A DNA stretch of 31,066 nt, taken from positions 1-31,066 of the IMG/VR virus record IMGVR_UViG_3300013372_001618, one strand, 5' to 3'. A program made the position numbers and the translations under genes. This DNA comes from a virus. The first letter of the stretch is position 1; every line of letters starts with the position of its first letter. The notes beneath the pieces were generated by a model. The model was not told the DNA's origin. It did not search any database and saw nothing but the letters and a program-made list of their open reading frames with translations. Of this stretch, positions 3,176-28,200 are shown piece after piece.

Positions 3176-3194
3176 TACCCTAAACTTTTTTTTT
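3163..3194 (+). terminator. Rho-independent terminator
   Basis: The left arm AGTTTGGGG (3163-3171) pairs over 9 bp, including one G:T, with CCCTAAACT (3178-3186). The loop is 6 nt, and 9 thymines run from 3186 to 3194. It ends the 36-aa gene transcript; the TAA stop lies inside the hairpin. It also argues against the TTG at 3193 as a start for the next gene. Confidence 0.85.
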
Positions 3195-3222
3195 GGTCAT
3201 TATATTATTAGATAATTACTGT

Positions 3223-4584
3223 ATGACCTCTAAACAACGAATTATAGAAATAAAAGAAATAACCGATCAAATAAGCCCTACATTTTGTTTGGCTAAATGG
3301 CATCATACTACAATCTATCTTCAAACAGGAGAAACACATAGTTGTTATCATCCTGCTCCACACAAAATACCACTTGAAGAGATTAAAACTAATCCTAGTG
3401 CAATTCATAATACCATAGAGAAAAAACAACAACGTGCAGAAATGCTAGCAGGTGAAAAACCCCAAGGTTGTCAATACTGCTGGAACATAGAGGCATTAGG
3501 TGATGACTATATCAGTGATCGACATGATCGTAACGCCAGTATCTATAAGCCAGAGAGACTACAGGAAATTATTGATCAAGGTCCGGACTTCAATGTCAAT
3601 CCTGAATATCTTGAAATAAGTTTTGGCAATGAATGCAATTTCAAATGTGGCTACTGCCATCCCAAAGCATCTAGTAGTTTTTATAAAGAGATAAAAGAAC
3701 ACGGTGCATATCCTGTTAACAATCACAGATTTACTGTTGACGGATTGTTTATCTACGAAGAAGACGTCAATCCATATGTAGCAGCGTGGTGGCGTTGGTG
3801 GCCTACACTGCGTAAAACTTTAAACATTCTACGTATAACTGGAGGTGAGCCTCTACTGCAAAAGAACACATTCCTATTACTAGATAACTTAGATAGATAT
3901 CCACTGCCCAATTTAGAATTAAACATTAACAGTAATCTGGGTGTGAAACCCCTATTAGTAAATCGACTTGCAGAAAAAGTTGAAAAACTTCGTGTAGAAG
4001 GTAAAATTAGAAACTTCAAACTGTTTACCAGTATTGACACTTGGGGAGAACGAGCGGAATATATACGTACTGGATTAGACTTAGAAGTATGGGAAAGTAA
4101 TTTCCATACATATCTAACTAAGACAGCGAACCCAATAACTTTTATGATTACTTTTAACATCTTAGCAGTTACTAGTTTCAAAAGTCTATTAGAAAAAATA
4201 CTTGAATGGAGGAAACAGTATGGTTGGTATTCTAGTACTAATGAACATCGTATTCGTTTTGATACTCCTTACCTAAAGGAACCTTTACAATATGACATGA
4301 ACATATTGCCCAAAGCAGAGTTCTTACCTTATATGCAAGAGGCTTTAGAATTCATGGCCGCTAATGTTGACAACTCTGCTGTTGATAAATTTACTGATCT
4401 AGAATATGAAAAGTTTCGTAGAGTAGTAACCTACATGGAAACTACTATATATTCAGATGCAAAAATAAAAGAAGGTCGTGCAGACTTCTATCGTTGGTTT
4501 ACAGAATATGATCGTAGACGAAAAACTGATTTTGTTAAAACTTTTCCAGAATTAGAAAACTTTTATAAGTCTTGTAAAACATAA
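3223..4584 (+). CDS. Twitch-domain radical SAM enzyme
   Basis: 453 residues from the ATG at 3223; an upstream in-frame TTG falls inside the terminator T-tract and is rejected. The radical SAM cluster motif is CNFKCGYC (CxxxCxxC) near residues 137-144, followed by ITGGEPLL (SAM-binding GGEP) near residue 207. An N-terminal cysteine-rich section (CYHP, then CQYCW near residue 83) resembles auxiliary-cluster or twitch-type proteins, so a second Fe-S cluster is possible. Such enzymes generate a 5'-deoxyadenosyl radical to modify peptides, sugars or small molecules; the substrate cannot be read from sequence. The stop overlaps the next start (TAATG), making this the first gene of a four-gene coupled operon with two GT-like proteins and a second radical SAM enzyme. 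Confidence 0.85.
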   Translation: MTSKQRIIEIKEITDQISPTFCLAKWHHTTIYLQTGETHSCYHPAPHKIPLEEIKTNPSAIHNTIEKKQQRAEMLAGEKPQGCQYCWNIEALGDDYISDRHDRNASIYKPERLQEIIDQGPDFNVNPEYLEISFGNECNFKCGYCHPKASSSFYKEIKEHGAYPVNNHRFTVDGLFIYEEDVNPYVAAWWRWWPTLRKTLNILRITGGEPLLQKNTFLLLDNLDRYPLPNLELNINSNLGVKPLLVNRLAEKVEKLRVEGKIRNFKLFTSIDTWGERAEYIRTGLDLEVWESNFHTYLTKTANPITFMITFNILAVTSFKSLLEKILEWRKQYGWYSSTNEHRIRFDTPYLKEPLQYDMNILPKAEFLPYMQEALEFMAANVDNSAVDKFTDLEYEKFRRVVTYMETTIYSDAKIKEGRADFYRWFTEYDRRRKTDFVKTFPELENFYKSCKT

Positions 4585-5873
4585 TGAATAAGATTAAAAT
4601 GGCCTATAACTGGATTGGTCCACAAGGACCTCTCCCTAATATTGAAATACCAAATATTCTAAATCTAGCCGATGCTTCTGTTGGTGGATCGTTAACTTCT
4701 AATAGGATTTGGATAGAAGGTATATGGCATATCTTTAAAGACCATTTTGAATTAAGTCCTACTGCTAGTATACAAGACTCTGATACATTCATATATCCGT
4801 TAACTCTACATTGGCGTGTAAACTTTGATTCTTATTTTACTATAGGCGATGGCATTTTAGAATATGCTCATCTTAGTAACGATATTCTACACAAAATTAA
4901 ACACGGCAACGGTTATATTTTGATAGATCATAGCCCTGAAGCATTTGTCTACGATAAACATCTCAATGTGCTACATTCTTATTTCTCATCTCACGGTATT
5001 CCTTTATATAAGATATTGTATCTGACCGGATGTATGAATATCGAAGAAGTGTACAACAGCTATTGCAATCGATATCGTATCCCCAATGACAAAAGTCATA
5101 GAATAAAATTAGTATGCTATCCTTGTAGCATAGATAGTGCATCAAAGGATATTGAAAATTTAGAAGTTGAGCCTGGCTATAATACAGAAAGTATGCCTAA
5201 AAAAATATTTTTGAGTTGGAATAGAAGGCATAAAGCTCACAGAAACATGTTGACCTTGCTATTTGATAAAAACAATCTGCTAGATTGTAGTTACTTTAGT
5301 ATGTCTAAATGTCAACCGGAGTTTCCTGATATAAAATTTGAAGATATTTTTGAAGACTACTGGCTTGACTTTTTTGATTTGTCAAAAGAAGACATATCTA
5401 ACCTAGTAAAAAAACTACCACTAGTAGTCGACGGGGAAACTTCTATTAATAAAATGATGAAGGGTACTCAATCTACATCAGAAAATTTTTACAAAAGCAG
5501 TCTAATAAGTATCATAACAGAAACTAACTTTGTAGAAAATGAAATTTCAATGACAGAAAAATCTATTAAACCTGTTAAAGAAAAACATCCGTTCATCATG
5601 GTAGGTGTAAAAGGCACACTAAAAGCATATCATAGGCTCGGCTATAAAACATTTAGTGATTTTTGGAGTGAAGATTACGATAACATAGAGAACTGTTGGG
5701 AACGACTCCGTGAAATTATTAGGGTATGCACAGAAATTTCACAGTGGGATAGTGCTAAAATTCTAGATTTTAAAAGAAATGTTAAACCAATATTAGATCA
5801 TAATTTTCAAATTGCAAAAGCAGGCATCAGTCAACAAGCTGCAAACAGTATTATTCAACATGTCAACACATGA
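4584..5873 (+). CDS. GT-B-like glycosyltransferase family protein, copy A
   Basis: 429 residues. Two conserved blocks tie it to the proteins at 5870-6949 and 9062-10258. The first is KKIFLSWNRRHKAHR near residues 206-220. The second begins TETNF and continues through TEKSIKPV near residue 323, HPFIMVG, GYKTF near residue 353 and FWSEDYD. An E-x-TEK-xxKP-xxxxPF pattern resembles the nucleotide-sugar binding region of GT-B enzymes such as GT10 fucosyltransferases. The likely role is sugar transfer to an unknown acceptor. The N-terminal half is divergent and may bind the acceptor. It is coupled by 1-nt and 4-nt overlaps to the radical SAM gene and to copy B. The family resemblance is clear to me; donor and acceptor are unknown. 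Confidence 0.6.
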   Translation: MNKIKMAYNWIGPQGPLPNIEIPNILNLADASVGGSLTSNRIWIEGIWHIFKDHFELSPTASIQDSDTFIYPLTLHWRVNFDSYFTIGDGILEYAHLSNDILHKIKHGNGYILIDHSPEAFVYDKHLNVLHSYFSSHGIPLYKILYLTGCMNIEEVYNSYCNRYRIPNDKSHRIKLVCYPCSIDSASKDIENLEVEPGYNTESMPKKIFLSWNRRHKAHRNMLTLLFDKNNLLDCSYFSMSKCQPEFPDIKFEDIFEDYWLDFFDLSKEDISNLVKKLPLVVDGETSINKMMKGTQSTSENFYKSSLISIITETNFVENEISMTEKSIKPVKEKHPFIMVGVKGTLKAYHRLGYKTFSDFWSEDYDNIENCWERLREIIRVCTEISQWDSAKILDFKRNVKPILDHNFQIAKAGISQQAANSIIQHVNT

Positions 5874-6949
5874 AAATATATTATTTGCGATGTTACAATC
5901 TAGAATTAACAGAAAATCTAGAATTAGTAGCCAACAGAATTATCGACAGCGACCCCGATAGGATAATAATTTGGTGTGCCCAAGAATATGCCTACTATGA
6001 AATATTTGATCAGTTGTTTGATCTATTAGAAAACTGGGCCACATCTAACAATAAATTAGTTCATTTGATCACCACTTGTAAATCTGGATATGTTAGGCCG
6101 TGGATTCTAGCAGAAGGCACCTACGGTATACTATATAATTTTATGTTTGCACACATGATGGGATTCCCTACTGACCCAAAAATATGCGATAAAAAATTCA
6201 TATACCTTAACAATAACAAAGCACCAAGTCAAATCAATCCCACTAAAATTTTTACTTGTTATAATCACACTGCACATGCCCAAAGAGGACTGCTGGTAGA
6301 TCTATTGGCAAGAGACAATTTGATAAAATTAGGCATAGTGACCTTTCACTATCCCGAACAATATCAGTGGATTTATCATAATGGAACAAAACTTCTTGAC
6401 GAATTAGATTTCAAATTAGATAACAATAAGTACTCACCCGATATGGTTCCACAAAGTCAAACTTCTGCTTTTATGGACGTAGTTACAGAATCTCGATATG
6501 ATATCAATGAATACTTTATTACAGAAAAAACATTAAAAAGTCTAATGTTGTATAGACCCTTTCTAGTGTTAAGCTGTCAAGGGTTTCACAAATACCTTGT
6601 TGACCGCCTTGGACTCAGATTATACGATGAACTATTTGACTACGGTTTTGATAATGAACCATCGATCAACAATCGCGTTGAAGGCATCATAAAAAACATT
6701 AAACATATAGAAAAAAGTTTTAGCAGTACTACACAGTTAAATGAAATGTATGATTCTATTAGACCAAAATTATTATATAACAGAAATAGAATAGAAGAAA
6801 TATTTGTCAACAAGGATTTAATTGTACCAAAATCACTTAAATTCTTAATGGAACAAGACAATATTACAATAGAAAATGCCGGGTATGCAGACCTACCTGA
6901 TTATATGATAAAAATGGGTTGGTCTAATATAAAGTTAAATAATGTATGA
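5870..6949 (+). CDS. GT-B-like glycosyltransferase family protein, copy B
   Basis: 359 residues, the shortest of three related proteins here. The shared middle block is TKIFTCYNHTAHAQR near residue 125. The shared C-terminal block has TESRY, then YFITEKTLKSL near residue 218, RPFLVLS and a degenerate GLRLYDELFDYGFD. The YxxTEK pattern is close to that of fucosyltransferase-type GT-B enzymes. The N-terminal 120 residues (a repeated LELVAN-like helix and a DPDRIIIWCAQE strand) form an alpha/beta fold. It overlaps its neighbours by 4 nt on each side, and its stop leads directly into the B12-binding radical SAM gene. Sugar transfer is inferred from weak motifs only. Confidence 0.55.
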   Translation: MKIYYLRCYNLELTENLELVANRIIDSDPDRIIIWCAQEYAYYEIFDQLFDLLENWATSNNKLVHLITTCKSGYVRPWILAEGTYGILYNFMFAHMMGFPTDPKICDKKFIYLNNNKAPSQINPTKIFTCYNHTAHAQRGLLVDLLARDNLIKLGIVTFHYPEQYQWIYHNGTKLLDELDFKLDNNKYSPDMVPQSQTSAFMDVVTESRYDINEYFITEKTLKSLMLYRPFLVLSCQGFHKYLVDRLGLRLYDELFDYGFDNEPSINNRVEGIIKNIKHIEKSFSSTTQLNEMYDSIRPKLLYNRNRIEEIFVNKDLIVPKSLKFLMEQDNITIENAGYADLPDYMIKMGWSNIKLNNV

Positions 6950-9075
6950 CTCCTGAAGAAGCCAATGACAAACACCTAATGACTCTTAAAGCCATTGCAG
7001 AGTATGCTAAACCTGCACAGCAAAAGAATCTTACTAGTGTACAAATAGACTATGCTATTAGAAAAACTAGATTAATGCTAGTGATACTGCCGCAATGGGC
7101 AGCAGAATTTCCGCCGTTTAATCTCTGTAGACTTAGCTCTGTTGTTAAAGAAGCAGGTTACGAAAGCCGTATCATTGATGCTAATATTAAAGGCTATCAA
7201 TACTATAAGAAACATATAGAAGATAAGATAAATTTTAAACTATGGGACCCAACAACAATCTGGCGTTGGGTCGGTGACAACTACAATGATATACATTCGT
7301 TAATTGAACCAATATTAAATGAATGTTTAGACTCCATTATAGAGTACAATCCCACTATAGTAGGATTTAGCATGTATCAAATGAATGAAGAGCCTACTAA
7401 ATGGATGGCTCAAGAACTTAAAAAACGTATGCCTCACGTTAAAATAGCAGTAGGTGGACCTAATGTACAAAAAGGATATTTTGTTAAACAACCTTACTAT
7501 GATTACGTAGTCAGTGGCGAAGGTGAAGAAGCTATCTTAACGATATTAGATGAGATCGAAAGCGGCCTAGGAGGCACTGATCAAAAGCATCTAAGTCAGC
7601 CGGAAGGACAGAGATTAAATCTTAACAACTTCCCCATGCCTGACTATGACACTATAGATTTTAATGAATATAAAATACCCAACGGCGTTACTACAGAATT
7701 AAGTAGAGGGTGCATTGCCAAGTGTACATTCTGTGAGGAAACACACTTTTGGAAGTATAGGCAGCGACAGGCTATAGATGCACTAACTGAGGTGGAATAC
7801 CTATACAACAAAAAAGGCACAACAGTCTTTTGGTTCATTGACAGTCTTGTAAACGGAAATCTAAAAGAACTTAGGGCATTTGCCAAAGGTGTTGTGGCCA
7901 AAGGACTAGACATCAAATGGACTGGATATGCTAGACATGATGGTCGTATGGATGTAGAATATTTGAAAGATTTATATGCCAGTGGATGCATGATGTTGAA
8001 CTACGGATCAGAAGCTGGCAGTCAAAATGTATTAGATAGTATGGCCAAAGGTGTCACTATTGCAGAGATGGAACAGAATTTTAGAGACGGCCATGCTATA
8101 GGAATCAAAGCAGCCACTAACTGGATTGTGGGATTTCCAACTGAAACATATCAAAACTATGCAGATACTATGACCATGCTATGGCGTGTTAGAGATATGA
8201 GCGTACATAATATGAGTACAGGTGTAGGATTTTTTAACGGCCCTGAAACTATTGTGGGGCAAAATCCAGAAAAGTTTAATATCTCAGATCATAAATATTT
8301 AGGTTATTGGATTAGTAAAGACTTTACTAAGGGCGGCAGTCATTTGCTCATGCGTGTAAAATGTATGAGTATCTTCCTTGATCAGATTATAGGCAACAGA
8401 GGTATTAACTATCCTCACAGACCTGCATTGGCCAGAGATCATTACACGATAAAATATATCAAACCTGGTATAGAAAAGGATGTTAACTACGAACAATTTG
8501 ATTACGATATAATCAAAACTGATATTAATCCTTATGCCGACTCTTTAGTAAACGAGATATGGCCATTGCTAAGGATGCTATGGAAGACACGTGGCGGCTA
8601 TACTGCTACTATTAAATTTAGTCCCGAATTAGACGATACAGAGTTTGGTCGTCATTTCGGCACTGGTCTATACACTGCCGAATTTAAGTTTACTATCTTA
8701 GAAAGAGGTAATTGGGCAGCTGATTTTAAATATAAATTTGTACAGAATGTTGAGCCGGATCAATATAGGACTGCTAATAGATGGGGTGCATTTTTTGCAC
8801 AAGATTATAGTAAGATGGAGGGCAATCCTGCTGCCCGTGCAAGACAACTGGCCAAGCCCGCATGGGGCAAAGATGGGCGAGGCGAAGTGGAATTTAATCA
8901 GTTAATCGATGAAGAAAAAGAATTAAATCGCACAATTGATTTTGGTTTTAACTATGCTTGGAAAGACACAGGTGACTGGAGCGACTATAGGAAGTATGAG
9001 ATTAGCATTCCAGGAGCAGATATTCCAAGAGTAGAGGAACACCCCTTAGTGTTCAAACCACTTATAAAACATTGA
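6946..9075 (+). CDS. B12-binding-domain radical SAM enzyme
   Basis: 709 residues. An N-terminal Rossmann-like region (about 40-200) has LMLVILPQW, IVGFSMYQMN, VGGPNV and YVVSGEGEEAI, the pattern of a cobalamin-binding domain placed before a radical SAM core. The classic DxHxxG is not obvious, so cobalamin may bind base-off without His or not at all. The core carries RGCIAKCTFC (CxxxCxxC) near residues 256-263, then the usual WFIDSL, GSEAGSQNVLD and GFPTET strands. A C-terminal extension of about 250 residues is unassigned. Known families of this architecture methylate or rearrange unactivated carbons. It is coupled to copy B by ATGA and converges with the minus-strand operon over 14 bp at its 3' end. 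Confidence 0.85.
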   Translation: MTPEEANDKHLMTLKAIAEYAKPAQQKNLTSVQIDYAIRKTRLMLVILPQWAAEFPPFNLCRLSSVVKEAGYESRIIDANIKGYQYYKKHIEDKINFKLWDPTTIWRWVGDNYNDIHSLIEPILNECLDSIIEYNPTIVGFSMYQMNEEPTKWMAQELKKRMPHVKIAVGGPNVQKGYFVKQPYYDYVVSGEGEEAILTILDEIESGLGGTDQKHLSQPEGQRLNLNNFPMPDYDTIDFNEYKIPNGVTTELSRGCIAKCTFCEETHFWKYRQRQAIDALTEVEYLYNKKGTTVFWFIDSLVNGNLKELRAFAKGVVAKGLDIKWTGYARHDGRMDVEYLKDLYASGCMMLNYGSEAGSQNVLDSMAKGVTIAEMEQNFRDGHAIGIKAATNWIVGFPTETYQNYADTMTMLWRVRDMSVHNMSTGVGFFNGPETIVGQNPEKFNISDHKYLGYWISKDFTKGGSHLLMRVKCMSIFLDQIIGNRGINYPHRPALARDHYTIKYIKPGIEKDVNYEQFDYDIIKTDINPYADSLVNEIWPLLRMLWKTRGGYTATIKFSPELDDTEFGRHFGTGLYTAEFKFTILERGNWAADFKYKFVQNVEPDQYRTANRWGAFFAQDYSKMEGNPAARARQLAKPAWGKDGRGEVEFNQLIDEEKELNRTIDFGFNYAWKDTGDWSDYRKYEISIPGADIPRVEEHPLVFKPLIKH

Positions 9076-10258
9076 GGTTTGTGTTGATCTTAAACCATTT
9101 TGTTATATGATGGTTGTGTGCTAACACTTCAGACATCTCATTATACATCTCTTGTAGTTCATCAATAGACTTGCTGTCAATTAGATCAATGACATCTAAT
9201 ATCTTTAACATGCGCCGTTCGTGATTTTCTTCAAGGTCATAACTTTCATCCCACCAACGATCAAAAGTGTTAAACCCAAAAGTTTTAAGATACTTTAAAC
9301 TGTAGGGAGGTGCTACAAGTATTAAAGGTAATTTTGCCCGTAAAGGGTTTAAAGTTTTTTCACTGATATTTGCAAATGGCTGCGCGAACCGTGTTTCATT
9401 GACTACTGCACAAAAACATTCTGCGTAACTGTTGATAAATTCAGTTGAGACAGGAGGTGCAACCTTACCAGGAATACACACAGAATTAAACTTGTCAACC
9501 GTTACAGAAGATGTATCCCTATCAATGTGTAGATTAGAATTTTCTAAGACAGCCGATCCTGCTACTAATTTTAAAAATCTCAATGGGTTAGAATTTTCTA
9601 ATTGATCTAAATCAAACCAAACATTTTCTCGAAGTTTATCAAACTCGCATTTGATATGCCAACTATAATTTCCTTCTATGTTAACTAGATGAGACATGGA
9701 AATGTGTCTATGAGTAGCGTATCTCCAATTTGAACACCAAAACTTTTTAGATATGTTGTGGTTAATAGTGTTGTATTTTGTAGGATGATTTAGGCTTCTT
9801 AAGAAGATATCAAAGCAGTGTAATTTTAAATTTGGATATTGGTCTTGTAGTAATTGTATCCCATACTCACAGGTATATACATTGATAAATTCAAGATTGT
9901 ACGCTACTCTAAATTTTTCAACACTGTCTAATTCATCACTTCTTATATCAGATATACTTTCATCACCTTTAAATTCACTGTAAAATGATCTATTGTGAAA
10001 TTCATTTGTTGATAATTTAAAACACAAAGGCTCAAAGAAATAAACATCTAGTGCAGATAATTTTGACTTAACTTCTAAATTATCAAATTCGTTGATAAAG
10101 TTAGTACCAGTATAGATAAAAGACGGAGTCTTGATGGTTTTAATATTTTTAAAGACATTCCATCTCAATTGAGAAACAGCCAAAAATCCCAAATGATCTT
10201 CTTGACCTGGAATGTTTACCCAATACAATCCCGGCGTGTATTCAAGATCTAAGTTCAT
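9062..10258 (-). CDS. GT-B-like glycosyltransferase family protein, copy C
   Basis: 398 residues, last gene of the minus-strand operon. It shares both blocks of copies A and B: KKFWCSNWRYATHRH near residue 170, and a C-terminal block with NETRF, ISEKTLNPL near residue 301, LPLILVA, then GFNTFDRWWDESYD. The last piece is the best-preserved version of the motif in the window. The N-terminal 160 residues show no recognisable fold. The start ATG overlaps the amidinotransferase stop by 4 nt. Its place beside an amidinotransferase and an aminotransferase suggests it transfers, or is built around, a modified sugar made by those genes; that is inference. The 3' end overlaps the B12 radical SAM gene by 14 bp. 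Confidence 0.6.
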   Translation of the reverse strand: MNLDLEYTPGLYWVNIPGQEDHLGFLAVSQLRWNVFKNIKTIKTPSFIYTGTNFINEFDNLEVKSKLSALDVYFFEPLCFKLSTNEFHNRSFYSEFKGDESISDIRSDELDSVEKFRVAYNLEFINVYTCEYGIQLLQDQYPNLKLHCFDIFLRSLNHPTKYNTINHNISKKFWCSNWRYATHRHISMSHLVNIEGNYSWHIKCEFDKLRENVWFDLDQLENSNPLRFLKLVAGSAVLENSNLHIDRDTSSVTVDKFNSVCIPGKVAPPVSTEFINSYAECFCAVVNETRFAQPFANISEKTLNPLRAKLPLILVAPPYSLKYLKTFGFNTFDRWWDESYDLEENHERRMLKILDVIDLIDSKSIDELQEMYNEMSEVLAHNHHITKWFKINTNLNVL

Positions 10259-11214
10259 GATTCTCTAATTAAATCCAATGTTACACAATGAAAACATCCG
10301 CCTAATGTCCTACTATGACGCATGGGCAACATAGCGCATTCTATTCCGTATTTTTCTAATTCTACTCTAAGATTATGTTGATGTTCTTCAACTATAACAA
10401 GGCTTGGACTAACACTTAATAAATTTACATTAATCCATTTAGATGAATTACACCATCCAGGATAATGCCCAACATCAACAGGTTCAGGAGAAAATATAAC
10501 GTCCCAGTCCTGAAATGCCCTGGGCAACATATCTTTACTCTTAACTCTGCTAGGATTTACCAGCATGAGTCCTTCTCTTAGGAAGGCCACGGTACTGTCA
10601 ATGTGCATATAACTATAAACATTTTCTAATGTATGCACGGGAACATTTAGTAACTCTTGAAGATACTGAGCACCATTTTTGTTACCACTGTTTGAAACCA
10701 AATACATTAGTTTGTCATTGGCTTTAATAACATTGGCAGCATCAAACTTTGGATGATGATTTTGTAAGGCTAGTACCTCTGGATCGCCGAGACATTCTAG
10801 ATTGTACATGTCATCGCCTTGATAATTAGGTACCACATGTATATTTTCTAAATGTTCAGCATAGGCTAGATACTCATTTTCACGGGCACGTAGACTCATA
10901 GGGGCTGCAACTGCCTTATTGCCGTAGGCTATTATAGTATCTCTTGGACAATAATTGTAGTACTTTACAGGCTCTCTATGTGGGCGAACCACTTCTACAC
11001 TGCACGACTTTAGAAAATTACTCAGCGTTTCTAAATCTTCATTTGCTTCATCTATTACTTGTGTTGGATATTGCCCTTGATGAATAGTGGATTCATCTTT
11101 TACATCAGCATAGTTTACTGTGCGTAGACTAATATCTAAAGAGGGAATTGTTGCATAATCAGCAACTCCAACTACTACTTTTTTAAGGGTATCCCATTCG
11201 TTTAAAGCATTCAT
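10255..11214 (-). CDS. Glycine/inosamine-type amidinotransferase
   Basis: 319 residues from the ATG at 11214; the longer frame would start at a TTG at 11226. The match to the GATM/StrB family is strong: YCPRDTII near residues 88-95, FDAAN with catalytic Asp158, YMHIDST with catalytic His204, SSKWINVN near 257-264, and TLGGCFHC with nucleophile Cys310. All three catalytic residues are present. The family moves an amidino group from arginine to an amine, giving guanidinoacetate (GATM) or guanidino-inositols (StrB). The acceptor cannot be read here. The ATG begins one base after the previous stop, preceded by GGATTTTAAA. Neighbouring aminotransferase and glycosyltransferase-like genes make an amino-sugar acceptor plausible. 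Confidence 0.88.
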   Translation of the reverse strand: MNALNEWDTLKKVVVGVADYATIPSLDISLRTVNYADVKDESTIHQGQYPTQVIDEANEDLETLSNFLKSCSVEVVRPHREPVKYYNYCPRDTIIAYGNKAVAAPMSLRARENEYLAYAEHLENIHVVPNYQGDDMYNLECLGDPEVLALQNHHPKFDAANVIKANDKLMYLVSNSGNKNGAQYLQELLNVPVHTLENVYSYMHIDSTVAFLREGLMLVNPSRVKSKDMLPRAFQDWDVIFSPEPVDVGHYPGWCNSSKWINVNLLSVSPSLVIVEEHQHNLRVELEKYGIECAMLPMRHSRTLGGCFHCVTLDLIRES

Positions 11215-11215
11215 T

Positions 11216-11971
11216 TTAAAATCCAACTGGTTGTCTGTAGTGCAAATTATATTTTTCTTTAATCATTGTAGTAATTATAGGAGCTAAGTCTTTATTTTTC
11301 GGTAAAGGAATCATGTCAATGATGTCTTGGTGTATGCCGTGGCAAATATCCACTGTTTGATAATTCATCTCTAAATTTAAACTAGGGTATACTTGATCTC
11401 TTAAAAAATTTAAATGATGTAATACTGTAGGATGATCATCATATTGATATTGGCCAAACGCTTCAGTTCTATTGTAATCAAAAATAGTGTCAGTAGGGAT
11501 AAATTCTTTATAAAACTTAAACAATTTATTTTCTTTTTCTGTTAGATCTCTAGCATTACTTTCAAATTTTAATAAAGGTGTTACATTACTTTGAAAAGGA
11601 ATTTTGTACATCTTATTTGCAGATATGATTGCTGTGGAATTTTTTATAATATCGTTTTCAAGAGACCAGTATTTGCTAATAAATTTCCTATCATAAAATT
11701 CTTCATGAAAAATATTCCCGTGTGTTTGCCAGTGTCTAATGTAACGATCTTCTCTATGCCAATGACTCCATAAAACAATTACTAAATCATCTTCTGTAAT
11801 AGTATTCCTGAGATCGCATTCAACAAGTCTATGAAATATTCCTACATTACCTATTCCGCTCATGCCCCAGTTTTCACTAGGCACACCTAGGTCCCAAGCC
11901 ATTATATCTGCCCATGTAGGCCATCCAAATCTTGTAAACGAACAACCAAAAGTAAAAAGTCTCTTATACAT
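11216..11971 (-). CDS. SGNH/GDSL hydrolase-like protein, second copy
   Basis: 251 residues with SGNH-type blocks: FTFGCSFTRFG near residues 6-16 (serine nucleophile position), NWGMSGIGNVG near residue 34 (oxyanion glycine), LWSHWHRED near residue 67 in place of block III, and YDDHPTVLHHLNF (Asp and His of block V). Block V here keeps Asp-x-His more faithfully than in the related protein at 2200-3018. It could remove or transfer an acyl group on a glycan. The start overlaps the aminotransferase-like stop by 8 nt, and the stop sits one base before the amidinotransferase ATG, so it belongs to the same transcript. Confidence 0.68.
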   Translation of the reverse strand: MYKRLFTFGCSFTRFGWPTWADIMAWDLGVPSENWGMSGIGNVGIFHRLVECDLRNTITEDDLVIVLWSHWHREDRYIRHWQTHGNIFHEEFYDRKFISKYWSLENDIIKNSTAIISANKMYKIPFQSNVTPLLKFESNARDLTEKENKLFKFYKEFIPTDTIFDYNRTEAFGQYQYDDHPTVLHHLNFLRDQVYPSLNLEMNYQTVDICHGIHQDIIDMIPLPKNKDLAPIITTMIKEKYNLHYRQPVGF

Positions 11972-12554
11972 TGAATACCTTCATTTTAGGGAGATATGGA
12001 TAATCGTTGTAACTCCAAGATGTCGGAGTAGAATTTATAGCAGTTGGCAACTTTTCTAACCCTAGTTGAGCAGTTTCGGGTGTCATATAATAATGATAAC
12101 CCATTGTTTCAATATCCTGCATTGCCCAAGGCTTATCTGATGTTCTTCCATCGTAACACAATTTCTTTAATGTTGTATACGCATCTTGGTTATCTGTTAA
12201 GATTGCGCCGCCTCGTACAAGATTAAGATGTTTTTTATACTGGAAACTTAGACACATCAATGTGTTGGGAATGTAACCTTTTTCTTTCCAATAGACCGCG
12301 GCATCTATGATATTTGTATTGCCTAAATAATAATAGTCCTGCCATTTAACTTCTTCAAAGGCCCATTTGATTCCTAACTTTTCAAATGTAAAAGGAAGAG
12401 ACACGTAGGTCTGAGAGGGACAAGTGGCTGCTAGAACTTTATTATATCTTAATGACAGCTCAATAGCATGGGTGCAACAATCTACAGCAACGGCAAATGT
12501 AGACCCATAAAATTTAGCAATAGCTTTTTCAAACTCATCAACTTTATTAAACAT
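11964..12554 (-). CDS. Short DegT/DnrJ/EryC1/StrS aminotransferase-like protein
   Basis: 196 residues, about half the usual 370-400. The large-domain features of the family are present in order: FEKAIAKFYGS near residue 8, a THAIELSL stretch near 28 replacing the usual SGTaAL, CPSQTYVS near 45, IIDAA with Asp84 (pairs with the PLP ring nitrogen), then LSFQYKKHL with Lys107 or Lys108 as candidate Schiff-base lysine, and RGGAIL. The normal C-terminal small domain is absent; the next gene already overlaps, so it has not merely shifted frame. I prefer the ATG at 12554, which overlaps the upstream gene by 8 nt, to a TTG at 12593. It could be a minimal sugar aminotransferase or a PLP-binding partner. 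Confidence 0.72.
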   Translation of the reverse strand: MFNKVDEFEKAIAKFYGSTFAVAVDCCTHAIELSLRYNKVLAATCPSQTYVSLPFTFEKLGIKWAFEEVKWQDYYYLGNTNIIDAAVYWKEKGYIPNTLMCLSFQYKKHLNLVRGGAILTDNQDAYTTLKKLCYDGRTSDKPWAMQDIETMGYHYYMTPETAQLGLEKLPTAINSTPTSWSYNDYPYLPKMKVFNV

Positions 12555-13050
12555 TTTTTGTAAAAGTAACTTGTGCAGTGTACCTAGGTTCAAGTCCTAT
12601 GTTGGCTGCTAGATGGGGAGTATCGTATTGCCATATAATATAGTCACCTGCTGACCATTTAGTAAAAGGAGTATCGTCAACTTCTAATATGTGCCCGGAC
12701 CTCCAATCTTCTAAAAATACTATAGCTCTATAAATTGTAGTAGGATCTGTAATATTATGTACATTAATATAGGTTTTGTAACTATCACTGTGTCGTGGCA
12801 GCAAATCTCCGGTACTCATTTTAAGAAAATTAACACCTACATTTGTGCCGCCAAATAGTGTGAAGAAAGGTTCAGCCCAATCTGGCATGATATTTTTCAT
12901 ATCATATATTCCGCCCACTGAATCTCTCTCAGAATATCCTAAAGATTTCCACAGTTCTAAATCTTTAGGATTGTTAAACTGTGCATCTCGATATGTAAGT
13001 AGGGCATGTTTATCGCCCCAGAATGGTTTAATCAGACCCGTCTCAAACAA
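12547..13050 (-). CDS. 2-oxoglutarate/Fe(II) oxygenase-like protein
   Basis: 167 residues of double-stranded beta-helix type. A candidate facial triad is visible: His87 and Asp89 in PRHSDSY, then His146 in DTPHLAAN, with Arg156 in EPRYTAQ as candidate 2-oxoglutarate carboxylate binder. The arrangement recalls aspartyl/asparaginyl or prolyl hydroxylases and small phage 2OG oxygenases. It would hydroxylate an unknown substrate using iron, oxygen and 2-oxoglutarate. The start is a TTG at 13050, supported by GGAG seven bases upstream; no in-frame ATG precedes it. It is the first gene of the five-gene minus-strand operon, with overlaps or 1-nt gaps throughout. Confidence 0.72.
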   Translation of the reverse strand: MFETGLIKPFWGDKHALLTYRDAQFNNPKDLELWKSLGYSERDSVGGIYDMKNIMPDWAEPFFTLFGGTNVGVNFLKMSTGDLLPRHSDSYKTYINVHNITDPTTIYRAIVFLEDWRSGHILEVDDTPFTKWSAGDYIIWQYDTPHLAANIGLEPRYTAQVTFTKNV

Positions 13051-13057
13051 AATGTCT

Positions 13058-13061
13058 CTCC
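13058..13061 (-). promoter_or_regulatory. Ribosome binding site deciding a TTG start
   Basis: GGAG on the minus strand lies 7 nt before the TTG at 13050. An in-frame ATT would be only 4 nt away, and a stop (TAG) closes the frame further upstream with no ATG between. Confidence 0.6.
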
Positions 13062-13086
13062 AATAAATATGCTACTATTATTTATT
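13062..13086. promoter_or_regulatory. Possible divergent late-type promoters
   Basis: Between two divergent operons, AATAAATA occurs on the plus strand (13062-13069) and on the minus strand (13086-13079). Each has 7 of 8 bases of the T4 late motif TATAAATA. The minus copy sits about 29 nt before the TTG at 13050. The region is AT-rich, so chance matches are likely. Confidence 0.3.
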
Positions 13087-13127
13087 TGAGGAACCTATGC
13101 GAATAATTTTTATCAATGTGAGAATGT

Positions 13128-13886
13128 GTGAAAATAATACTAGTAACTGGCGGATTTGACCCCCTACATTCTGGACACATTTCCTATTTCGAAGCTGCTA
13201 AACGGTTAGGAAATAAGCTAGTAGTAGGACTAAATTCAGATGCGTGGCTCGAACGTAAAAAGGGTCGGGCTTTCATGCCCTTTGAAGAACGACAACGTAT
13301 TATACAAAGTCTTCATATGGTAGATATGGTTATAGATTTTGATGATAATGATGGCACTGCCTGTGATGCCATTGCTAAAGTTCGCCTACATTACCCTATG
13401 AAATATGTAAAAGTAATCTTTGCCAACGGCGGTGATCGTACAGCAAACAATATACCTGAGATGACTGTACCAAATGTTGAGTTTGTATTTGGTGTAGGTG
13501 GTGAAAATAAAATCAATTCAAGTAGCTGGATCTTAGATGAATGGCGGTCTCCTAAAACAGAACGACCGTGGGGATATTATCGAGTATTACATGAGGTCCC
13601 TGGAACTAAAGTAAAAGAACTTACAGTCATGCCTGGACAAAGTCTAAGCCTACAACGCCATAAAAACAGACATGAGATTTGGCATGTAGCAGAAGGCAAA
13701 TGTGCAGTTGAACAACGTATGTCTAGCGGTTATATTTTGCCAACAGTTAATTTAGAAAAATACAGTCAAATCAATATACCAATTAACAATTGGCATAGAC
13801 TGTATAATCCATTTGAGGAACCTTGCAAGATCATCGAAATACAATACGGCAAGTCTTGTGATGAAGAAGATATCGAACGGATTTAA
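13128..13886 (+). CDS. Cytidylyltransferase fused to mannose-6-phosphate-isomerase-type cupin
   Basis: 252 residues in two domains. Residues 1-135 are a nucleotidyltransferase of the RfaE/TagD type: GGFDPLHSGH with HxGH at His14-His17, VVGLNSD, then an ANGGDRT strand where such enzymes carry the second nucleotide-binding motif. Residues 143-252 are a type II phosphomannose isomerase cupin: ERPWGYY, PGQSLSLQRHKNRHEIW with metal-binding histidines, VAEGKCAV and NWHRLYNP. Together they suggest making an NDP-activated polyol or sugar. The start is a GTG with a stop upstream in frame, so no earlier start is possible. It is followed by an epimerase gene 33 bases on. The fusion of these two domains is unusual to me. 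Confidence 0.85.
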   Translation: MKIILVTGGFDPLHSGHISYFEAAKRLGNKLVVGLNSDAWLERKKGRAFMPFEERQRIIQSLHMVDMVIDFDDNDGTACDAIAKVRLHYPMKYVKVIFANGGDRTANNIPEMTVPNVEFVFGVGGENKINSSSWILDEWRSPKTERPWGYYRVLHEVPGTKVKELTVMPGQSLSLQRHKNRHEIWHVAEGKCAVEQRMSSGYILPTVNLEKYSQINIPINNWHRLYNPFEEPCKIIEIQYGKSCDEEDIERI

Positions 13887-13919
13887 TTAAAGCTATATAT
13901 AATATAAAGGACTATTAAC

Positions 13920-14846
13920 ATGCAAAAAATTCTTATCACTGGCCTGTCAGGATTCATTGGCGGCTATCTTAAAGACCGTTTAGAATCAAAATATCAAATT
14001 TTTGATCTTGATCGAGACCTATTAGACAAAGAAGGTATCGATCAACGCCTACAAGAAGTTGATCCCGATTTTATTATTCACCTGGCTGCAAGAACTGAAG
14101 TAGAAAAAAGTTTTTATGAGCAAACAAGTTTCAGTAGTGTTAACTATGTTGGCACTGTCAACATGATTGAATCAGCTAGGCATTTAAAAAATTTAAAATT
14201 ATTTGTTTTTAGCAGTACTATGGAGACCTACGGCTGGCAACCCGAAAGCGATTTGATTCGTGACGGCCAAGAATATACACTGCCTGTCTTCACAGAAGAA
14301 ACTAGGCAACATCCAAATGCTCCATATGCTGTGGCCAAGGTGGGATGTGAATTATATCTAGAATATGCACAACGGTCATTTAACTTTCCATTCTGTGCAT
14401 TCAGACAGACTAATAGCTATGGACGTAAAGATAATGATTTCTTTGTAGTAGAACAGATTATTTCACAAATGTTAAAAAATCCCAATGAAATTAATCTAGG
14501 TTATGGAGAACCATATCGTAACTTCCTTTGGATTGACGACTTAATTCGGTTATATGAAACAGTAATCGACAAACATGAGCAAGCTCGTGGAGAAATCTTC
14601 TGCACCGGTCCAAATAATGCTCTTAAAATCAAAGACCTTGTTGACAAGATAGCCAAGAAAATTGATTGGGATGGACAGGTTAATTGGAACACTAAGCCAA
14701 AGAGGGACGGAGAAATTTGGGTACTAAACTCTAGCCCTGCCAAAGCAGAACGACTGCTAGGATGGAAACCAGAAATGGATTTGGACACCGGGTTGGATCT
14801 TACTATCCAAATCTGGAGAGAAAAACTTCTAACCAAAATTGCTTGA
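13920..14846 (+). CDS. NAD(P)-dependent nucleotide-sugar epimerase/dehydratase
   Basis: 308 residues of the extended short-chain dehydrogenase family. The N-terminal GLSGFIGGYL (residues 8-17) holds the GxxGxxG dinucleotide motif, followed by HLAARTEVEKS, FSSTMETYG (active-site Ser/Thr) and YAVAK (catalytic Tyr-x3-Lys near residues 137-141). A FLWIDDLIRLY segment and a terminal GWKPEMDLDTGL segment are typical of GalE/GMD-like enzymes. It would epimerise or dehydrate an NDP-sugar, probably one activated by the upstream fusion protein. A TAAAGG ribosome site at about 13905-13910 precedes the ATG. The exact reaction is not readable. The TGA stop overlaps the -35 box of the next promoter. Confidence 0.9.
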   Translation: MQKILITGLSGFIGGYLKDRLESKYQIFDLDRDLLDKEGIDQRLQEVDPDFIIHLAARTEVEKSFYEQTSFSSVNYVGTVNMIESARHLKNLKLFVFSSTMETYGWQPESDLIRDGQEYTLPVFTEETRQHPNAPYAVAKVGCELYLEYAQRSFNFPFCAFRQTNSYGRKDNDFFVVEQIISQMLKNPNEINLGYGEPYRNFLWIDDLIRLYETVIDKHEQARGEIFCTGPNNALKIKDLVDKIAKKIDWDGQVNWNTKPKRDGEIWVLNSSPAKAERLLGWKPEMDLDTGLDLTIQIWREKLLTKIA

Positions 14847-14871
14847 CTTCCTGTTAAATTGGTGTTATAAT
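14843..14871 (+). promoter_or_regulatory. Consensus sigma70-type promoter with extended -10
   Basis: TTGACT (14843-14848) and TATAAT (14866-14871) are separated by exactly 17 bp, with TG one base before the -10. A 7-bp inverted repeat, TGTTAAA (14852-14858) and TTTAACA (14882-14888), is centred on the -10 box and could be an operator. This is the best promoter in the window and drives the 393-aa gene. Confidence 0.82.
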
Positions 14872-22200: not shown

Positions 22201-25200
22201 AAGTTAACACTCTATGGTCTGATCTAGCAGGTAAAGTTGGAGACACTGCGGCCATTTCTACTACTGGTCCTACGTATGCCGGGCAAGAGTTTGATACATC
22301 ATTCCTTGATGCTCGAACACTGCTATTAACACAAAAATCCATCATTGGTGTTAATGCTGTAACTTATTTAGAAACTACCTATGCTGGCGGGTTCCAATAT
22401 GCAGAAACTACTTGCTTTAGAGACTTAGGATACCTAGTACAGGCTGCGGCATTTGATATATTATTTGACAGCAACTATCAAAGTATTAATGCTGGTAAGA
22501 GTTACTATAGAAATGCCAGTGCCAAGGCTGTTGCTATTGGTACACAGTATGAAGAAACACTGGATGCTATCAACTATGCAAAAACTGTGGCCTTGGCTGT
22601 TTTAAATCAAGAAAACATAGAAATATACCAAGATGCTGTTAATCAATATTTCAACGTAGCACTTGCTCCTTCGGAGACTGCTATAGCTACTATATCGTCT
22701 AATTGGACTATTGTCACAGACATTATCCAATATGGTCTAGGTGCTAGTTCTGCTAGTTCACCAAATCTAGGTTCTGGTCTTGTTGAAATTAAATTTGACA
22801 ACGGAGGCAATGGATTCGTTGACCAAGGTTATCCGTTGAACAATGAACTTATTGCAGGCAAACTATTATTGGGTGCAAGCTCATTTGCCAACGCAACTGT
22901 TATCAGTTATACTCCCGGAAGTGAAACTGGTGTTAATGAAACTGACACTATTATAGCAAGACTAAATCTACCAATTGATTTCATTGAAGCTGATGGCGGT
23001 GAAGAATTAGAGTTTGCCGAGAGTGTAAAAGATTTACAAATAACTATCTTTGTTGAGAGTGGTATTTACTACGAAGACTACCCAATTAGACTGGCGGAAA
23101 ACGTATCAATTAAAGGTAACGATTTCCGCCGTACAATTATTCGTCCTAGAGATCGAGTGAGTCAAAGTGTATGGGCACGTATTTTCTTCTATCGCGATGC
23201 AGTCATGGATGGTATGCAAATTGGTTACTTAGATGAAGACACTGACTATGCTACTTCAGTATCGGCAACTATATCAGATGTTCTTGGTACCATCACTATT
23301 ACATTAACTTCCGGCGTAGTACCCGGTGAATGGGTCGGTCGAGTATTTAAATCGGGCGTTGGTAAAGCTCAGATTGACAGTGTAGCCAACAACTATATGA
23401 ATTGTACAGTGATATATCCATTTGCTGCCGCTGGAGAAATTATCAGCGGCAGTTGGAGCGTATACGGTCCTAAGAATTACGGACGCCACTACTTAACAGA
23501 TCCATTTGATATTACAAGTACTCCTAAGAATAATAGAGATATCGACGTATTCTTATGTAACAATGCAACTCGCGTTAATAATTTATCAGGCCAGGGGCAT
23601 GGCGGATTTATGATGGTGCTTGATCCAGAAGGACAAATTCTAAGTAAATCACCGTACGGTCAAGTTTGCTCAAGTTTTTCTGGATCAATTAATAAACAAC
23701 GATGGGCAGGTGGTCAATTTGTCGACGGTTTTGCAGGAAGACTAAAAGGTCAAATTACTGCACTAGATGATCTGCAGGTTGCATCGGGATCACTGCTAGA
23801 CGGTTATCTAAATGTCACTATAACAGGATATAAAAATTCAGGTTTAGATGTACGTGCTCCAAAAACTCCATGTTCGTTCTTCTGGAGAGGCATACGTTAT
23901 CAAGTAAACAATATATTAGACTACAACAGTACCACATATACGCTTCAGGTAGAACTAGATAAAAATACTCCGTACTTGGTCAGTACTCCTGTTACAACCA
24001 CAGAAACTGGTAATGGCGGTGGTGGCACTCTAATTACGTTAACTTATCCTGTACAGGTAGGGTCTCCTTACGTCAAAGGAAGTAGTGTACAATTAACTGG
24101 CTATAGCCCAATCGAGTATAACAGTTATTTTGTAGTTGACTCAAGTTCTCCTACACAAACAACACTGGTAAAATTTGCAGTTGGACAGGCAATACGTGTA
24201 GTTGGGACGTTACTTGGTGACGCTACAGGAATTAGTGCAGGTACCTACTATATCATTGCAACTAATGGTTCTTCAACATTTACACTGTCAGCTTCTAATA
24301 GTGGAGCGGCTCTAACTACTTCAGGAACTACGGTCACTGGCTTAACCTTTAGTCTAAATATTGCAGGAACATTTGACACTATAAACAGCGTGGCAGTTAC
24401 AGGTGTTGGCGGTCAATTTAGTTGTACAACAGAAATTCCAACAGCTGGTATAACAATACATGGCAGCATAAACGGTACTGGTTATAATCCAATTAATATT
24501 GAAATGGGTGGTAACCGAAGTATGCTGGCCAACGACTTTGCCATGATTAACGATCTTGGCTACGCTATTGTTGCAGGCAACGCCGGATTAACAGAACAAG
24601 TTTCAACATTTACATACTACTGCTATACTCACTATTGGTCATTTAACGGCGGACAGATTCGTTCGGTTGCCGGGTCCAATGCTCACGGTGTATACGGTCT
24701 ACGGGCCAGCGGATATGACGTAACAGAATTACCCGACCAAGTTGTAACTGCACAGAATCTTGTACAAGTCATGAAAATCTACAAGAAAAGATTAACTGTT
24801 AACAGCATGGAGTCTGGAGATCTTGAAGTATATGTTTCAAATTATGAATATGCTCCCCAAAATGTCAGTGAGCTAGAAATTGATCATACTAGTTCTGGTG
24901 GAACTATAACTCGATACGAAGTTAAAACAGTATCTGAATCTGGCTATACTACTGATCCAACATTTAATCAACCCGTATATGGAGTTCCGGTTAAAACTGG
25001 AACTGGTCCTTATTATGTGACATACACCGTGCCTTTACAAACTCAAATAGCTGCCGCTGGTAGCTTTGTAATAGGAGTCACTTACACTATTGTTAGCGTG
25101 GGTACAACAGTCTTTACTACTGTAGGAGCAGCACCAGGAGATGGCGTTGGTGATACTTTTGTGGCAACGGGTACAGGTACTACGGCTACAACAGGTGGTA

Positions 25201-28200
25201 CTGCTAGTTATGTACGTGCTCCTGGCATTGGTGTGTTCTATAAAATTAGTGGTAACAGTAACGAAGAGTACAACAGTAATATTTTATGCACTGCCAGCAC
25301 TACTACAAGCATAACACTAGAATATCAAACAGATCCGGGAACTGTGGGGGTAACTGGTTTTGCACTATTAACCATAGCAAACTATTCGCCCAACGTTGCT
25401 AGAGCAACATTTGCCCTACAGGCGAGTGCTCCATACAATATCGGTGATACCATTTATATTTCTGGAGTAAGTACCGAAGCATGGAATAACTCCTATCTAG
25501 TAACAGACTGTGGCACCACCTATGTGCAATTTAGTTCAGGTGTGGCTACAACTGTTCCTACCAGTGGTTATGTGACTAGTACACTGCTAACTGGCCAAAA
25601 AGTTTTATCGTTGAATTTCAGTACTAGCGGTAATGATAACACCTCAACTGCTGGATTGGCTTATACTTTATTCCATGAGCAGACCGTGTCCGTGAGGGCA
25701 TTACAGTATATTAAATTTACAGGTATTGCCAATGTAAACCCAACTCGACCAAGTACTGCATTACAATTCAACGAAAAGTTGTCTGAAATCTATCGAGTTA
25801 TATCCTATGGTCTAACAGATAGTACAGGCAATCAATTAGTTGATGGCACAGCAGTACTAACTACTGATACGTCATTTAACTACATTAAAGTATATACTGA
25901 CTCCGCTAACACAGTTGAGAGTGATCCCAATGATACTTATGAAGCTGTGATCACAGCCACCATTGATGACGGTGCTGGCAGTGCTGGTACTACTATGACA
26001 GTCTCAGCCAGAACTAGTGGCATTATAAGAATTGGTCAAATAATTTCAGGACCAGTTATTTCTATCGGTGACGCTGTTACATTTAGCGGGCTGTTGTCGG
26101 GCACTGGAAGTATTGTAGGCTATACTAATCCATCAACATATTATGTCGCCAGTACTAATGGCTCAACTACATTTGTGTTATCAGACACATATCAACATGC
26201 GTTAGATAACACTGACTTTATTACAACTACACCTGGCACTATCATTGCTGCTACTTCAATTGTAGTTACTACTACAGGTGGAAATGTAACTCTCAGTAAT
26301 GTAGAAACTACAGGTTCATCAGGGGAATTTGAATGTGATAACATTAACACTGTGGCAGCTGGATCAATAGTACTTGCACAAATATCTGGCACTAGCGGAG
26401 ATGTTGGAACTTATACCGTAAGCATTAGTCAGCTGGTAAGTCCTGCTATAACTATCAGTTGCGGTCCAAAAACTCTAGGATCTAGTATTGGTGATACAAA
26501 AATTGCTATTAGTCCTATTACAGATCAAACTATAGCCGATCAGCTGTCAAAGGGAATTTACATAACCACACTAGGCGGAAGGGTTCACCGAGTAACAGGT
26601 TATACTATTACTACTGGAACTGTTATTACCCTAACTGGTGCTAGTGGTACTGGAAGTATATGTACATTGACTTTTGCTGAACAAGCGGTGGCTCCGTTTA
26701 TTGTGGGCGACGTAATTGAAGTTGCCTATGCAAGGCCCACTGCGTATAATGGAACGTTTGTGGTCACAGACTGCACTACAACTTCGATTAGTTTCCCAGG
26801 TACAGCAACAGGAATATTAAGTTTACCAATTAGTGCAATCTTATACGGTTCTGGCCGTCCGGCATATATTAATATAGATCCAACTCCTGTAAAAGAAACA
26901 GCAGGAAATTATGATGAAGGGTTTGCAATTACCAGTATTGCTCTTAAAACAGGTGCCGGACCTTACTACGTAAAATATAATATTCCGAGCCAAGATTGGC
27001 CTATTGAAGTCGACACATACTTTAAGATATCGGGAAATGCATCAACTGGGTATAATGGTAGTCATAACGTAACAGCCGGTGTTTCGTTGTCCACTGTCAG
27101 TGTTTCAGGCGACGGCACAACGGTTACAATTACCTATGCACCACAATCGTCTGCACCTTTTGCGGTTGACTCTATTGTCACACTAAGTGGTGTAGTGAAC
27201 TCAGCATATAATAAGTCATACACTATTCTTACTTGTAATGCTACTACATTAACTGCTGCCAGCACTGTTACTGGTGCAGCCAGCGTCCAAGGCATACTCA
27301 GCCAACAGTCAGATTCTACTGTTAATACAGTGACCGTGGCCTATGTAGATGATCCAGGTACTTGGATTGATCCACGAAGCATTACTATTACCAGTTTTGC
27401 CAGTAAGTCTGCAGGCTTAGGTACTACTGAAAATGTAGTGTTTAACATTCCATATCAAGCAGTGATAACTGCTACAATTGATGACGGTGCTGGCCTTGCT
27501 GGTACTATTATGACAGTCTCAGCCGTATCTAGTGGTGTACTAGCGCCGGGACAAACTATCGGTGGTGCAGGCGTTACCGCAGACACTACTATTGTTAATC
27601 AGCTATCTGGTATTACTGGTAGCACTGGCACCTACACCGTAAGCATTAGCCAACTACTAACTCCAGCGGTGCTTGATAATGTCAATGCCAACACTATACC
27701 AACTGTGGGTACTAGTGTGTATTACACAATCTATGGTAACAGTAATGTTGACTATAACGGATTAGTCAACGCCACTACTGCCACCATCAACACCATAACA
27801 TTTAACTATCCAAGTGATCCTGGAATATATGGCGGTGGTACAACTAAGATAATATCAGGATCTTCAGTAATGCGTAGACCACATACTGGTATCGATAAAC
27901 CGTTGTCCGCTGACACTAGTTACACCATGCGTATTGGTTATCCTAAGAATATTGGTGGTCAAGTTACAGTTAAAATTTCAACTACTCGTGCCACAGGACA
28001 TGACTTCTTAGATATAGGTACTGGCGGTTACAATACCACTAACTATCCAAATCAAATCTTTGGTAATCCAACTATATCCAAAACTGGTATTGTAGGTGAA
28101 GTTAAGGAAGATGGTGTTGGTCGTGTATTCCACGTAAGCACTGATCAAGACGGTATCTTCCGTGTAGGTCGATTCTTTACAGTTGACCAAGGTACTGGTA

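Follow-up and report, generated by a model that had tools for sequence, protein, structure and literature searches.

A mobile phage module described here seems, on the balance of the evidence, to make an amino sugar, convert it into a guanidino sugar and transfer the product. A guanidine-bearing sugar is probably made by the phages that carry the module, because a half-size DegT/StrS aminotransferase (mini-DegT) and a StrB-type amidinotransferase (AMT) travel together with oxygenase and sugar-transfer genes. The window, by which we mean the whole stretch of DNA analysed (31,066 nucleotides), corresponds to an IMG/VR phage contig of 31 kb; for context, a sibling of 39 kb was read, and so was a 96 kb contig whose AMT protein is identical; open reading frames (ORFs) were called mechanically throughout. 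Five genes form a compact minus-strand operon at 9062-13050, in the order 2OG oxygenase, mini-DegT, SGNH-like, AMT and GT-B-like. The 2OG and mini-DegT genes overlap by 8 bp, as do mini-DegT and SGNH; SGNH and AMT are 1 bp apart, AMT and the GT-B-like gene overlap by 4 bp, and 77 bp separate the operon from an opposing plus-strand pair, an NT-cupin gene and an SDR dehydratase/epimerase gene:

12547..13050, minus strand: 2OG/Fe(II) oxygenase, Asp/Asn-hydroxylase-like, 167 aa; TTG start with GGAG upstream
11964..12554, minus strand: half-size DegT/StrS aminotransferase (mini-DegT), 196 aa; ATG at 12554, ORF opens with TTG at 12593
11216..11971, minus strand: SGNH/GDSL-hydrolase-like protein, accessory; assigned from motifs alone
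10255..11214, minus strand: StrB-type amidinotransferase (AMT); ATG at 11214, ORF opens with TTG at 11226
9062..10258, minus strand: putative GT-B-like glycosyltransferase (GTB_c); AlphaFold model with a marginal fold match
13128..13886, plus strand: NT-cupin fusion, HldE-C-like plus mannose-6-P-isomerase-C-like; Pfam PF01467 and PF01050
13920..14846, plus strand: nucleotide-sugar dehydratase/epimerase (SDR); Pfam GDP_Man_Dehyd, 1.4e-42

All seven genes named in the first-pass annotation are present at their places and its roles are right in outline, the SGNH and GT-B calls being weak. The better starts are probably ATG 12554 for mini-DegT, where its homologues begin, and ATG 11214 for AMT. 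A promoter and terminator scan gave little of use. A strong sigma-70-like site (TTGACT-17-TATAAT with an extended TG) lies at 14843-14871, ahead of the gene at 14879.

AMT is of the StrB type, and amidino transfer by it is strongly indicated by its family and predicted active site. Its best solved relative is StrB (1bwd; phmmer E 6.5e-58, profile E 5.6e-85), and the Asp-His-Cys triad, first read as intact in this one protein, turned out to hold without exception across 37 aligned phage homologues. The tree comprised 87 sequences, 63 of them phage rows; 61 phage AMTs make up one clade (100/100) on a long stem, the placement of two phage rows with very long branches (L141 and L004) being unreliable. 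At 95/86 this clade is joined by StrB and a single cyanobacterial protein, whereas human AGAT groups elsewhere, with most cellular homologues (98/95). The arginine-site residue Arg322 of AGAT is kept in 61 of the 63 phage AMTs, so L-arginine is the likely donor. The position of AGAT Asn300, the glycine-binding residue in that structure, is Ser or Thr in 61 of 63, so glycine is an unlikely acceptor. The original label of GATM/StrB-type is thus kept on its StrB side by the tree and dropped on its GATM side, where the glycine-binding Asn is absent.

The aminotransferase, as far as homology goes, is a derived half-size branch of the DegT/DnrJ/EryC1/StrS family; it is assigned by homology only, because it falls short of the two-domain length (about 360-400 aa). 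It matches Pfam DegT_DnrJ_EryC1 (PF01041) with E 1.3e-15, and measures 196 aa as against about 370 aa for the usual DegT/StrS enzymes. The first-pass annotation had called it StrS-type, which agrees with the Pfam match and the PLP residues, and had missed the half length. With few exceptions the 67 distinct homologues are 194-218 aa long, a constancy that rules out a full-length enzyme shortened by frameshift or truncation; full-length DegT proteins from the same loci have 320-399 aa. Neither the N-terminal arm nor the C-terminal domain is present, and an internal segment (~45 aa) is likewise missing; the Schiff-base Lys108 and the PLP residues Asp84, Ser103 and Thr28 are invariant across 51 aligned sequences. 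The AlphaFold model (pLDDT 96) comes closest to solved folds of sugar aminotransferases, all of roughly double its length, with GDP-perosamine synthase and ArnB among them. The large-domain fold and PLP-binding residues are common to mini-DegT and these two enzymes (about 365 aa), whereas mini-DegT lacks the three segments. No viral model of its size matched well in the structure comparison, and we know of no tested precedent for a half-size DegT enzyme.

At least 580 contig stretches match, and they come from many uncultured aquatic phages; yet among 50,697 phage records a close relative is present in just one. E-values of the locus search are relative to the candidate stretches, and the loci analysed are the best-matching among the matches listed. 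Viral contigs retrieved by AMT alone gave 79 new best-matching loci with AMT, of which 73 bear mini-DegT, mostly one or two genes off. After removal of near-copies, mini-DegT is present in 61 of 65 distinct best-matching AMT-anchored phage loci, and 53 of these 61 have it on the AMT strand, usually one or two genes upstream. A control set was anchored on an endonuclease gene near the operon and comprises 80 loci, many of them short: neither AMT nor mini-DegT occurs in 78, and the two loci with both are the source phage and its sibling. Among control loci holding at least 15 kb, neither gene is found in 25 of 27. A fixed neighbourhood as the explanation of co-occurrence is thereby ruled out, and the pair should be considered a mobile unit whose joint presence does not simply follow from common descent of this region, because the control loci nearly all lack both genes. 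A lack of co-occurrence in relatives had been set beforehand as something that would refute the pathway, and the opposite was seen, with very strong co-occurrence of the pair (61/65 against neither gene in 78/80).

Other genes accompany the pair to different extents. Among 95 non-redundant best-matching loci, part of which were retrieved by mini-DegT and are thus biased for it, mini-DegT is found in 90, 2OG in 80, GT25-type genes in 32 and an O-carbamoyltransferase (NodU/CmcH-type; Pfam PF16861 7.5e-55, PF02543 3e-21), which is a further enzyme of sugar tailoring, in 24. The plus-strand unit had been read as part of the pathway, but NT-cupin occurs in only 2 of the 65 best-matching AMT loci and an epimerase-family gene in 29 of the 95; being rare in relatives, both were ruled out as module members, and the unit lies outside the conserved core. 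Among the neighbours conserved with the pair in the 95 best-matching loci, there is neither an inosamine kinase nor a dehydratase or dehydrogenase dedicated to forming a ketone.

It is also evident that mini-DegT occurs in two genomic contexts. Of 74 distinct best-matching mini-DegT loci, 39 have AMT, 19 have a cupin and 16 have neither in the available stretch; AMT and cupin are together in none. The mini-DegT tree likewise splits AMT-linked from cupin/GMD-linked groups (91/91; 96% of bootstrap trees). Where cupin loci were read, mini-DegT stands with GDP-mannose 4,6-dehydratase and with a gene for a methyltransferase or acyltransferase, and this context therefore ties the mini-DegT family to sugar-nucleotide amination. 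It is also seen in bacterial genome records (Prochlorococcus, Neomarinimicrobiota and alphaproteobacterial contigs), some of which are single-cell or metagenome assemblies that may include phage DNA. Several marine bacterial records (L103-L106 and L108-L112) show a cassette of cupin, methyltransferase or another small gene, mini-DegT and GDP-mannose 4,6-dehydratase. The AMT context is the phage-specific one. A cellular origin as an intact pair was ruled out, since a phage-type AMT adjoins mini-DegT in none of 11 mini-DegT genomes; the sole AMT match in these genomes falls with AGAT in the tree and is located on a separate contig.

The iron site of the 2OG protein (H87-x-D89 and H146) is kept in 81 of 81 relatives and the 2OG-binding Arg (R156) in 70 of 81. 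Its match to Pfam Asp_Arg_Hydrox is weak (19 of 30 family members, best E 9.8e-6), and a profile search against the PDB gave no significant match. In 14 relatives among the 95 best-matching non-redundant loci the 2OG domain is fused to a GT-B-like protein. The GT-B-like protein of the window (AlphaFold pLDDT 82) has marginal PDB GT-B matches (best E 1.2e-3, TM 0.38), with no fold match below 1e-3 and no Pfam family match. Three GT-B-like proteins in the window (4584-5873, 5870-6949 and 9062-10258) have a common TE...(S/T)EK(T/S) motif, and two radical SAM genes lie near them, at 3193-4584 (NCBIfam N_Twi_rSAM 6.9e-97) and 6946-9075 (B12-binding). The SGNH-like protein carries GCS..T and DDHPT...H motifs, read directly from the sequence, and has no Pfam, PHROG or NCBIfam match; a family member lies within four ORFs of AMT in 25 of the 65 best-matching loci.

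In the proposed pathway, the PLP-dependent mini-DegT would aminate a keto group of a sugar nucleotide or cyclitol, and AMT would then move an amidino group from L-arginine to the amine so formed. The 2OG and GT-B-like proteins, acting jointly, would most likely hydroxylate an acceptor and then place the sugar on it, and other glycosyltransferases may share in the transfer; alternatively, the 2OG protein could make the ketone itself. The 2OG::GT-B fusions suggest hydroxylation and transfer on one substrate, as in the lysyl hydroxylase/glucosyltransferases. Collagen LH3 and mimivirus L230 are enzymes of this kind, in which a 2OG hydroxylase is joined to a glycosyltransferase as in the phage fusions; the phage 2OG and GT both come from different families. 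The sugar cannot be named, because neither a kinase nor an enzyme that forms the ketone was recognised as conserved, and the substrate must therefore come from a variable gene or from the host.

The acceptor is most likely a phage virion protein (fibres), followed by a host surface glycan and then DNA. More specifically, phages may carry a dedicated, mobile pathway in which mini-DegT helps to make a streptidine-like guanidino sugar and the 2OG/GT pair, in some relatives a single fused protein, puts it on hydroxylated residues of virion fibres, giving a positively charged glycan, a tentative picture that we hold to be somewhat unlikely in this full form. The AMT/mini-DegT pair in the window lies near giant fibre-like genes. 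The fibre motif searched for was found in only 3 of the 95 best-matching related loci, and a fibre-adjacent position is thus unsupported as a general sign of a virion target. One giant protein of 3721 aa with the motif NDGTGDSIRESFRKVNENFTE is encoded at 19248-30413, and it is one of several giant fibre-like genes on the 96 kb sibling contig.

A target in the host envelope, where LPS or capsule glycan would be remodelled during infection (for instance to block superinfection) and the virion would not be decorated, is possible but doubtful. GT25 genes of the "LPS biosynthesis" type are found nearby, KdsA- and KdsB-annotated genes adjoin a second amidinotransferase in Synechococcus phage S-SCSM2R, and in bacterial genome records the genes around cupin/GMD-linked mini-DegT are of polysaccharide type. 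However, no polymerase, flippase or ligase was recognised among the conserved neighbours, for which annotation was not exhaustive, and the 2OG::GT-B fusions suit a hydroxylate-then-glycosylate route on protein better. That an amidinated amine or sugar serves to hypermodify the phage DNA is quite improbable. Genes for 2OG enzymes and radical SAM proteins are common in DNA hypermodification clusters, but the 2OG protein here is of the Asp_Arg_Hydrox type and not TET/JBP, and the window genes scanned gave no match to a DNA glycosyltransferase or DNA-pyrimidine hydroxymethylase family. T4-related phages do glycosylate their DNA, as in the arabinosylation of RB69 (PMC6024577).

The two enzymes could also act in parallel, mini-DegT making an ordinary amino sugar for a glycan and AMT amidinating another amine (a polyamine, amino acid or lipid). 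The varied acceptors of the AMT superfamily, of which HsvA and SxtG are members, are consistent with this, as are AMT genes with no mini-DegT nearby (at L129, L136, L146 and L179 and in Campylobacter phage CP220) and the 35 of 74 best-matching mini-DegT loci, some of incomplete extent, that have no AMT. It is unlikely nonetheless, given the joint presence of the pair in 61 of 65 best-matching loci against neither gene in 78 of 80 controls, and given mini-DegT groups specific to their contexts (91/91; 96%) with AMT and cupin together in no best-matching locus. Viral surveys frame amidinotransferases in yet another way, as glycine-amidinotransferase or creatine genes: one viral gene set bears the label K00613 (PMC8226683), creatine biosynthesis by viruses via GAMT is a topic of one ocean survey (PMC11360552), and "glycine amidinotransferase" stands on phage records as an automated name. 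That AMT is such an enzyme (GATM, K00613), an auxiliary metabolic gene of creatine-like metabolism, is extremely improbable; the phage clade lies with StrB and AGAT elsewhere (98/95), Asn300 is replaced by Ser or Thr in 61 of 63, and no GAMT-like partner was recognised among the listed conserved neighbours. This identity was rejected on the tree and the active site, and members of the phage AMT clade that are labelled "glycine amidinotransferase" in viral metagenomes are probably misnamed.

The proposed guanidino-sugar pathway resembles the StrB/StrS steps to streptidine (streptomycin) in pairing a DegT/StrS aminotransferase with an arginine amidinotransferase. It differs in the half size of the aminotransferase, in having no conserved inositol dehydrogenase or inosamine kinase, and in being embedded in phage glycosyltransferase clusters. 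Bluensomycin-type pathways include an O-carbamoyltransferase, and some phage relatives also add one. The module is related to known phage glycan clusters, as a variant of them. Nearly the same gene set lies in one run in the annotated record of Synechococcus phage S-SCSM2R (PQ898602, about 228-236 kb): 2OG, glycosyltransferases, mini-DegT (as "AHBA synthase"), radical SAM, 2OG, AMT (as "inosamine amidinotransferase") and GT2. Its gene order is different, the radical SAM gene lies inside the run, and no SGNH gene is annotated. In the Campylobacter phage CP220 group an AMT-superfamily gene lies amid radical SAM and nucleotide-sugar-transferase-like genes, but it is only 24% identical and has no mini-DegT nearby. 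The first-pass annotation knew of no phage system of such composition: no paper on one was found, but the composition is already deposited, since the S-SCSM2R record holds nearly the same set. Searches for phage amidinotransferases, phage DegT and guanidino DNA, with bioRxiv and subscription papers outside their range, returned no account of the module, and no functional test of the S-SCSM2R glycan cluster was found in the literature searched. If the proposed pathway is true, it would be a virus-encoded route to a guanidino sugar, a chemistry with no viral description in that literature. The module also provides a PLP sugar aminotransferase of half size for enzymologists to study, and it leads to the testable prediction that virions or host surfaces bear a charged glycan so far unseen.

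Further genes were observed beside the module in relatives. ORFs of 1450-2221 aa lie downstream of AMT at L144:14294-20956 and in eight other loci, most of them starting RDVFYYG.KPN.HP; the one that was scanned has no Pfam match. In S-SCSM2R the second amidinotransferase (SSCSM2R_266, L221:47584-49931) adjoins KdsA and KdsB and then a 2OG oxygenase. By sequence reading, the sibling contig has FabZ-like, ACP-like and ketosynthase-like ORFs at L097:11933-13997, with fatty-acid-desaturase-like ORFs nearby.
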